This document shows, in pieces, positions 32,181-47,936 of a DNA stretch of 64,000 nt. The stretch lies in assembly GCF_900104355.1 (NCBI RefSeq), contig NZ_FNIY01000009.1, positions 62,001 to 126,000 of the forward strand. Reading direction: 5' to 3'. The notes below the pieces were generated by a model. It saw only the letters and a list, made by a program, of their open reading frames with translations, did not search any database and was not told the origin of the DNA. Made by a program: the position numbers and the translations under genes. Within the stretch, counting starts at the first letter, position 1; every line of letters begins with the position of its first letter. This stretch comes from Phyllobacterium sp. OV277. Lineage in GTDB: Bacteria; Pseudomonadota; Alphaproteobacteria; Rhizobiales; Rhizobiaceae.

Positions 32181-32362
32181 TGGTGGTTCGTGGTTCGACA
32201 TAACACCATGAGGGAGATGGTGGGTTGCACAACCATTGTCGCGCCCTTCGACAGGCTCAGGATGAGGGAGAGTGTTGGCTGCAATGCTAATCGCCAACCG
32301 GTGCAGAATAGAGCACCTTGCAACCCTCCCTCTCCCTCATGGTGAGCTTGTCGAACCACGCG
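32181..32362. repeat. Intergenic element, family 2, copy A
   Basis: Begins with GTGGTTCGTGGTTCGACA and ends with its inverted counterpart (GAGCTTGTCGAACCACG). Inside are CTTCGACAGGCTCAGGATGA and a GCAATGCTAATCG core shared with the other copies. Short spurious reading frames with LPHGELVEPR arise from this sequence. Confidence 0.8.
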
Positions 32363-32412
32363 CTATGTTACTGCAACAATCTTTTCAAAGAAAAATCATG
32401 CCAACTTATCCA

Positions 32413-32661
32413 ACACCATCCCACCTCGCTTATTCTGATGGTGTCCTTTCCGGCGGGAATGCTCCGGAAACTTTCTGAAGTCAGGAAAGGATCGGTGATT
32501 TCATCTGCGGGGAGAACCCAGCCGCAGGGGAATCGGTTTTATCTCACAAGGGTAAAATCAGTCATCGGGACGGGTGATCCGGGAGTTTTCTTGGTTGAAA
32601 CAGGAAAATCTCCGGGGAACGCACTGATTAAACTACCAATACCAAGACTTCCGCGTTCCCC
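32413..32661. other. Non-coding hairpin array (possible structured RNA)
   Basis: Consecutive inverted repeats: ACACCATC/GATGGTGT (32413-32444), TTTCCGG/CCGGAAA (32447-32470), CTTTC.../GGAAAG (32471-32489), CTGCGG/CCGCAG (32505-32527), GGTTTTA/TAAAATC (32535-32549), a long imperfect stem around TTTTCTTG/CAGGAAAA (32579-32615), and GGGGAACGC/GCGTTCCCC (32614-32661). The last two overlap and would compete. No convincing protein is encoded on either strand. It lies in the 1035-base gap between parE and lpdA. Confidence 0.55.
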
Positions 32662-32763
32662 TTTGGATCGCCCGTCTTTCCCACCTTATCAATAGCCAGA
32701 CGCGAAAGCGGGTGTGGTGATGGGGGAGTGTGTTCCGTAACTGCAATGTTGTGGATGCAATAA

Positions 32764-32917
32764 CCCCCCTGTCCTGTCGGACATCTCCCCCACAAGGGGG
32801 GAGATCACATTGACATCAACGCCTTTGCACAACCGGAAACTTTGCAAATTGTGCAAGATAGCATTGAAGGCTGATCTCCCCCCTTGTGGGGGAGATGTCC
32901 GACAGGACAGAGGGGGG
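32764..32917. repeat. Long inverted repeat with about 45-base arms
   Basis: Arms at 32764-32807 and 32872-32917 contain CATCTCCCCCACAAGGGGGG and its complement, including TGTCCTGTCGGACA. The 64-base centre holds a second nested inverted repeat (TTGCACAA at 32825-32832 with TTGTGCAA at 32849-32856). No coding sequence inside. Confidence 0.85.
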
Positions 32918-32944
32918 TGAGCACCGCCGATATGTATGCATGGT

Positions 32945-33088
32945 GCGAGGTTCGTGGTGCGTGGTTCGACAAGCTCACCATGAGGGAGAGCGGTGGATGC
33001 AACGCTAATCGCGAAGATTGCAGATCTCAAAGGTCGCAGAATTTAGCACCCCTCATCCTGAGCCTGTCGAAGGGCGAACCACGCACCA
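32945..33088. repeat. Intergenic element, family 2, copy B
   Basis: Starts with GAGGTTCGTGGTGCGTGG and GGTTCGACAAGCTCACCATG, has the GATGCAACGCTAATCGC core, and ends with CATCCTGAGCCTGTCGAAGG followed by CGAACCACGCACC. The ends are inverted relative to each other. Confidence 0.82.
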
Positions 33089-33091
33089 CCC

Positions 33092-47663: not shown

Positions 47664-47936
47664 AATGGACTTCCGCACCTCATCCGAACCAAAGTGTAAC
47701 CAGAGAATTGTCTGGTATTTGGCCCTATGAATCCTGAATTCACTCTCTATATAGTATTTGAGCGGGCCAGCATAAAGCACCATGGCGTAAATTCTGCGAC
47801 AATGGTATTTGTGATCGCCCAGGCGGAAGCTTTCGGGCCAAGCCGGCTTCAATACACCGCGTACTCGTTACGGAACGATTATCGTGTATTGCCGTTTAAC
47901 TCGTCGCTCCTCTGAGGGCGACTACGGGAGATCGCG

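Follow-up and report, generated by a model that had tools for sequence, protein, structure and literature searches.

A candidate multicopy structured RNA gene family of the Hyphomicrobiales, with a copy between parE and lpdA in Phyllobacterium sp. OV277

We analyzed an array of hairpins in a 64,000-nucleotide stretch of Phyllobacterium sp. OV277 DNA (contig NZ_FNIY01000009.1, positions 62,001 to 126,000), hereafter called the window. The array is part of a unit (~32391-32718 of the window) that lies in the gap between parE and lpdA, two genes that converge on it. We conclude that the unit probably belongs to a non-coding, multicopy family of structured RNA genes of the Hyphomicrobiales under concerted evolution, which would be transcribed and would act in trans. 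This reading builds on the copies of the unit, the conservation of its helices across species, an enriched pair of upstream boxes, orthologous loci and a lost orthologue signal, all of which were computed directly.

Folding against shuffled controls, proposed as a check when the array was first noticed, came out in its favor. Positions 32413-32690 of the + strand folded as RNA at -109.5 kcal/mol, compared to a mean of -86.4 kcal/mol for shuffled sequences (z score, -4.16), and none of the 200 shuffles folded as well. The opposite (-) strand folded more weakly (z score, -1.86; 7 of 200 shuffles as good). The original prediction had described consecutive inverted repeats at 32413-32661, including stems of 8 and 9 bp, and these are indeed present there. 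We took the stems from the sequence and then mapped them onto an alignment of copies. All on the + strand, they comprise the P1 stem of 8 bp (32444-32451/32484-32491), three further stems (32505-32510/32522-32527, 32535-32542/32552-32559 and 32582-32590/32604-32613) and a stem of 9 bp (32614-32622/32653-32661). The last two hairpins, 32582-32613 and 32614-32661, had been thought to overlap in such a way that they could exchange; they are better read as two hairpins within one enclosing 14-bp stem (32567-32580/32665-32678), which had gone unnoticed, as had a terminal hairpin beyond the array (32695-32718). Because of this enclosing stem and the terminal hairpin, we place the end of the feature at about 32718 instead of 32661. 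At the opposite end, the first inverted repeat (ACACCATC/GATGGTGT, 32413-32420/32437-32444) spans a promoter-like -10 box. It is retained in the copies of the own genome and of the sister species, but the other Phyllobacterium copies inspected do not preserve it, so the RNA probably does not include it.

When the parE-lpdA gap served as query against the own genome, 185 matches were returned, many of which correspond to the flanking palindromes. The unit itself occurs at 13 similar loci (L001-L013), the others being 88 to 93% identical to the window copy. Together with two divergent copies, C4:85539-85664 (model R1) and L069, the genome holds about 15 copies, and three 3' fragments were found besides (L014, L021 and L067). 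Furthermore, a motif from the 3' end, searched with at most 3 mismatches, occurred at 18 places in this genome, of which one (L080) looks like chance, whereas the reversed control gave 0. Model R1 yielded 17 matches at an E value of ≤0.001. The reading frame was not kept across the 13 copies, which differ by single-base insertions and deletions, and a coding reading of the unit was rejected on this ground. This is in agreement with the initial impression that the region encodes no convincing protein, the open reading frames (ORFs) of the gap likewise not being kept.

Among 297 genomes of the family, a blastn search in which two candidates per genome were scored found matches, mostly at the 3' end, in 28 (the own genome among them). 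The 3' motif with at most 2 mismatches was present in 34 of the 297 genomes and in 20 of 109 genera, the own genome having 16 occurrences and genomes of other species up to 12 each. With the reversed motif as control, 6 matches were obtained in all, and several single two-mismatch matches are probably due to chance. In total, at least 106 homologous stretches were recovered across named genomes. Among the matches listed are Phyllobacterium, Mesorhizobium, Chelativorans, Nitratireductor, Pseudaminobacter and Notoacmeibacter, as well as unclassified Rhizobiaceae, Phyllobacteriaceae and Hyphomicrobiales, and the unit also matches two Phyllobacterium plasmids. The core of the window copy had no match in phages and the exact 3' motif none in viral contigs, so that a phage-borne element was not indicated by either search. 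One copy (L061, 3001-3342; NZ_CP088276.1) sits between fliQ and flhA in a run of flagellar genes carried by a Phyllobacterium sp. T1293 plasmid.

The relatives share a common anatomy, namely, an A-tract, a TTATCC-like box, a CATAAT-like box, P1, a variable middle and a long 3' hairpin, to which the Phyllobacteriaceae units add a GCCAGA..GAAA..GGCGTGG hairpin. In the window, the A-tract with TCATGCCAAC (32391-32405, + strand) forms a conserved, UP-element-like left edge that is common to the 13 own copies and was seen in other Phyllobacterium copies; to the left of it, copies diverge. Next comes a promoter-like TTATCC box (32406-32411, + strand), a word found in 32 of 59 representatives compared to 1 of 59 flanks, and then the -10-like box GCTTATTC (32428-32435, + strand), which reads GCATAATC or GCATACTC in other genera. 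In the representatives compared, a spacer separates the A-tract and TTATCC-like box from a CATAAT- or TTATTC-like box, all of them ahead of P1. Anchoring on the -10 word was possible in 38 of 64 representatives, and in 27 of these 38, the TTATCC-like box starts 21 to 25 nt upstream of it. Since the -10 word served as the anchor, this alignment alone is no proof that the -10 box is conserved.

Downstream of the boxes, the 5' hairpin P1 (GTCCTTTCC..GGAAAGGAT, 32443-32492, + strand) carries the motif GCGGGAA, which was found in 29 of 59 representatives and 1 of 59 flanks; besides this word enrichment, P1 is supported by the arm-swap test described below. The middle consists of a CTGCGG..CCGCAG hairpin (32497-32534, + strand), of which alternative versions exist among copies, and of a GGTTTTAT..GTAAAATC hairpin (32535-32559, + strand), with 98.6% of cells paired. 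The long 3' domain (32567-32678, + strand), in which the 14-bp stem surrounds two hairpins, is backed by the arm-swap test and by double changes. The unit closes with the terminal hairpin GCCAGACGCGAAAGCGGGTGTGGT (32695-32718, + strand), which has a GNRA loop and was found by motif searches in Phyllobacteriaceae only.

Pairing of the helices was compared between own, swapped and shuffled arms. For P1, own arms reached a mean score of 19.7, compared to 15.8 for swapped and 14.6 for shuffled arms (81 elements, whose 5' arm takes 36 distinct forms), and 379 of 1620 swaps scored as well as the own arms, which we take as moderate evidence for P1 pairing. For the long 3' hairpin, the scores were 33.1 for own, 18.9 for swapped and 17.2 for shuffled arms, with 99 of 3650 swaps as good (146 elements, left from 157 rows after 8 had been dropped as fragments or chance matches and 3 for want of an anchor). 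The arm-swap test was run beside RNAalifold, since MAFFT misaligns two classes of arms; a GU/AC count from it was left unused, being biased by the way the arms were selected. Both sides had changed in 10 pairs of an unfitted 13-sequence alignment, compared to 5.5 in shuffled data, and none of 500 shuffles reached 10; the gain in further pair types was less clear (38 of 500 shuffles). At one pair of the terminal hairpin, 24 of 30 sequences have C-G and the other 6 have U-A. Among 63 folded representatives, a set that includes a few doubtful loci (e.g., L106 and L139) excluded from subsequent analyses, the + strand folded better in 48 (p = 6e-6), and 48 had z scores below -2 on the basis of 12 simple shuffles each. 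Overall, the pair-keeping changes speak for the helices when species are compared but not when only the closest copies are. The guess that the array is a structured RNA is supported by fold z scores, strand asymmetry and pair-keeping changes. It was to be given up for a fold equal to shuffled sequence with no conserved pairing; what we found is a fold beyond shuffles and pairing whose conservation shows between species but not in the closest copies.

Beyond the family, model R1 matched five of 347 genomes of the order: the own genome, G067, two genomes of family f2 (G399 and G644) and G543, the last of which was judged a chance match because no boxes or P1 were seen. G399 has four copies of ~355 nt, three of them 89 to 90% identical to the query copy, and in these, the boxes recur in variant form along with a similar 3' hairpin. 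G644 has two copies, and for the second, the match extends over 233 of 401 bases. The box pattern TTATCCMCN{14,18}SCATAMTC gave 60 matches in 33 of the 347 genomes, with up to nine per genome, compared to 1 match for the reversed control; many single matches (e.g., L343, L345-L348, L358 and L359) are chance-like and come without the hairpin pattern. In a class sample of 337 genomes, four of them from Hyphomicrobiales, the pattern occurred 10 times and its reversed control 4 times. Among the relatives, the boxes are kept while the spacer varies. A z score of -2.0 or lower was obtained for 26 of 46 distinct post-box sequences, some of which (e.g., L348 and L357) look coding, and for 21 of 22 elements from family f6, most of which have a 3' hairpin of 52 to 66 nt. 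The f6 relatives thus look sound, those of f2 rest on model matches and sequence, and those of f11 are doubtful. The TTATCC box resembles the start of a DnaA box, and TTATCCACA resembles a DnaA box; because most order-wide matches of the box pattern read TTATCCCC, regulation by DnaA stays a side remark.

We compared the parE-lpdA gap in 12 of 20 Phyllobacterium genomes. It holds the unit in the own genome (G000) and in G302, G303, G298 and G310; in the other seven (G300, G304, G305, G306, G307, G309 and G311), the unit is absent from the gap. In the sister species, G302, 12 of the 13 own copies are found at the same locus, with flanks 82 to 98% identical, and 3 of its 15 copies have no partner in the own genome. 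Over the 12 pairs, identity was 88.7% for orthologues, 89.7% for own paralogues and 88.9% for other between-genome pairs. Divergence was 0.106 within G000, 0.103 within G302 and 0.115 between them, a result as large as which appeared in none of 2000 label permutations. Orthologues diverged by 0.1135, compared to 0.1109 for random matching, and hence were not closer to each other. Across 40 informative sites, linkage (r2) was 0.33 within 10 nt and ~0.04 beyond, and all four combinations were present in 69 to 78% of the more distant site pairs versus 39% of the close ones. L069, L286 and L287 were left out of the divergence and linkage analysis. Since the copies sit at fixed loci and orthologues are nevertheless no more alike, it seems likely that the copies exchange short tracts, that is, that they evolve in concert. 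In G298, the gap (L286, C41:195000-199500) contains two units, the first broken inside P1 by unrelated sequence, together with genes that by eye resemble a transporter and a MarR-type regulator.

Taken together, these data suggest the following model. The A-tract and the TTATCC-like and CATAAT-like boxes would drive a transcript of ~280 nt, predicted to fold into P1 with its GCGGGAA motif, a fast-changing middle and the long 3' hairpin, followed in the own bacterial family by the GNRA-capped terminal hairpin. This RNA would be one member of a multicopy family dispersed in genomes of several Hyphomicrobiales families. The copies would keep their loci when a species splits, while short-tract exchange shuffles their sequences among loci. 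As neither an orientation rule nor a partner gene alongside was found, we infer that the RNA acts in trans, most likely through its structure, by binding or sequestering a protein; protein binding is our preferred guess.

Several observations weigh against this interpretation. The scan of the gap for the sigma-70 consensus found 0 promoters (0.6 in shuffles), and the spacing of the boxes, with TTATCC starting 21 to 25 nt before the -10 word, is long for sigma-70; since the scan found none, we call the boxes promoter-like on account of their conservation and position. No terminator beyond chance was found in the unit. The exact box pattern was absent from all genomes of the own family in the 347-genome sample, the own genome included, which reads TTATCCAA and TTATTC at the boxes instead. 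P1 is weak in G507, five f11 sequences had z scores of ~0 or above, and a G399 copy reached -0.8 within the 320 nt folded, a segment that stops short of its 3' hairpin. As for the pairing tests, the choice of 3' arms close to the previously identified helix favors own pairing somewhat, and the 13-sequence test is favored by its use of a structure derived from a sequence in the set. RNAalifold on 30 mixed 3' domains recovered the terminal hairpin only, and among 28 copies of the two closest species, double changes were seen at 3 pairs, a number not clearly beyond chance (61 of 500 shuffles). Finally, part of what looks like exchange could stem from recurrent mutation, from the choice of alignment or from copies having multiplied in a burst shortly before the two species separated.

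The unit might instead be a non-autonomous mobile DNA element resembling a miniature inverted-repeat transposable element, with hairpins that serve a transposase and an RNA that is incidental. Being multicopy, dispersed and patchy among genomes (34 of 297 by the 3' motif), and missing from the parE-lpdA gap in 7 of 12 Phyllobacterium genomes, it would fit such an element. However, no inverted repeat of ≥12 nt joins the ends of the unit, 12 of 13 copies are at the same loci in the sister species, which gives no sign of recent movement, folding prefers the + strand, and the boxes are kept despite variation of the spacer. We consider a mobile element unlikely. The suggestion of a decayed mobile element, made in the original prediction, fares no better, as both boxes and structure are kept in copies that have stayed in place.

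The unit might also be a multicopy regulatory small RNA (sRNA) that base pairs with mRNAs, rather than an RNA that binds protein, which we regard as unlikely. Multicopy sRNA families with varying numbers of hairpins exist in rhizobia, according to PMC3927594, and a promoter-like site of its own and several copies are compatible with such a role for the unit. Against it, the words most shared among 59 representatives sit in P1 and in the upstream box, not in a common single-stranded stretch. The units also exceed the typical length of sRNAs. Still less probable, and in our view very unlikely, is a cis-acting leader or 3' untranslated region element of adjacent genes. Copies do lie in intergenic gaps, including the one between fliQ and flhA, but parE and lpdA converge on the window copy, and neighbors of 70 elements were oriented +/- in 23, +/+ in 20, -/+ in 18 and -/- in 9 cases; this test is weak, as the ORF caller was crude and 54 of 127 elements, which overlapped a called ORF of ≥150 amino acids, were set aside. 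The mixed orientation makes a leader role unlikely. Upon clustering of the ORFs near 165 distinct elements, the largest clusters consisted of ORFs that run across the unit, and the neighbor recurring most often without overlapping it (17 ORFs at 14 loci) looked by eye like an ABC ATPase, a common family. A fixed position upstream of a recurring set of genes was not seen among these neighbors, and a riboswitch or leader was rejected for lack of both an orientation rule and a gene rule.

Our interpretation as a family of trans-acting RNA genes allows a bolder version, which we offer tentatively and regard as possible rather than probable. The family might be a class of structured RNA genes, each bearing a promoter, that extends through the order and resembles ribosomal DNA but is dispersed: many loci at which it is fixed, conservation of the fold rather than the sequence, and continual reshuffling between loci via tracts of ~10 nt, perhaps in an RNA-templated manner; it could represent a new RNA-based machine of the Hyphomicrobiales or an RNA-only selfish element. 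Multicopy structured RNA genes besides those for ribosomal and transfer RNA are unusual in bacteria. The family spreads through an order that includes legume symbionts, has no match in Rfam 15, and pairs conservation of fold with fast sequence turnover and apparent short-tract exchange between loci.

The gap had also been noted to be full of other repeats, and palindromes are indeed found on both sides of the unit, at ~32182-32361, 32764-32915 and 32940-33090. The first and the last of these, outside the RNA, contain TTCGACAAGCTCA and CCTCATCCTGAGCCTGTCGAAGG palindromes, and a similar repeat occurs in the linker or at the ends of several relatives' units. Between them lies an inverted repeat pair with 44-bp arms (~32764-32915), a high-copy palindrome extending to ~32920 that has dozens of matches in the own genome, often adjoining copies of the RNA unit. 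Farther away, a THF-II (folE) riboswitch was detected at 47892-47930 of the window (59.1 bits).

We compared the unit with known families. At gathering score, Rfam 15 matched the whole window at this THF-II riboswitch and a tRNA, neither of which is at the unit. Two weak matches to the gap at an E value of ≤10 touch the unit, far below gathering, and five matches in 20 relatives at ≤0.5 included none at gathering. In 20 loci of other families at ≤0.1, an FMN riboswitch was found away from the unit, and the rest were below gathering; this riboswitch (L353, 977-1126) is near a box-pattern match in an f6 genome. The unit family is not described in the accessible parts of the open literature searched, including PMC2864571, PMC11109978, PMC5082802, PMC3927594 and PMC6429828. 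The omega-RNA of IscB/TnpB was considered since the copies are dispersed; nearby ORFs were clustered and a few were read by eye, with no nuclease-family search made. For a CsrA sponge, no repeated loop motif stood out among the shared words, which were all that was examined.

RIME elements are short palindromes of ~100 bp. By description and not by sequence, the unit is like RIME/ABC in being dispersed, intergenic and hairpin-rich in Hyphomicrobiales, and unlike RIME in that it is oriented, spans ~330 bp, carries promoter-like boxes and folds preferentially on one strand. High-copy palindromes resembling REP/BIME flank the unit and in some genomes lie inside its linker, whereas the unit itself is no palindrome repeat and also occurs without them. 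We rejected RIME/ABC and REP identity for the unit and retained both as possible descriptions of its flanks. The idea of a RIME/ABC mosaic, put forward for the array, does not fit the array itself; again by description, the flanking palindromes may be RIME/ABC-like.

Like SmelA075, SmelA099 and SmelC201, as described in PMC3927594, the unit has several copies per genome and hairpin modules and belongs to the Rhizobiales. It is set apart from the SmelA075 type, by description and not by sequence, in that it is not made of consecutive copies of one similar hairpin; its hairpins are mutually different and stand in a fixed order. OLE, ROOL and GOLLD are large structured RNAs whose role is unknown or partly known. 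Unlike them, the unit is smaller, multicopy and sequence-variable, with a box pattern that, in the class sample, was not seen beyond Hyphomicrobiales; what it has in common with them is an elaborate conserved fold.
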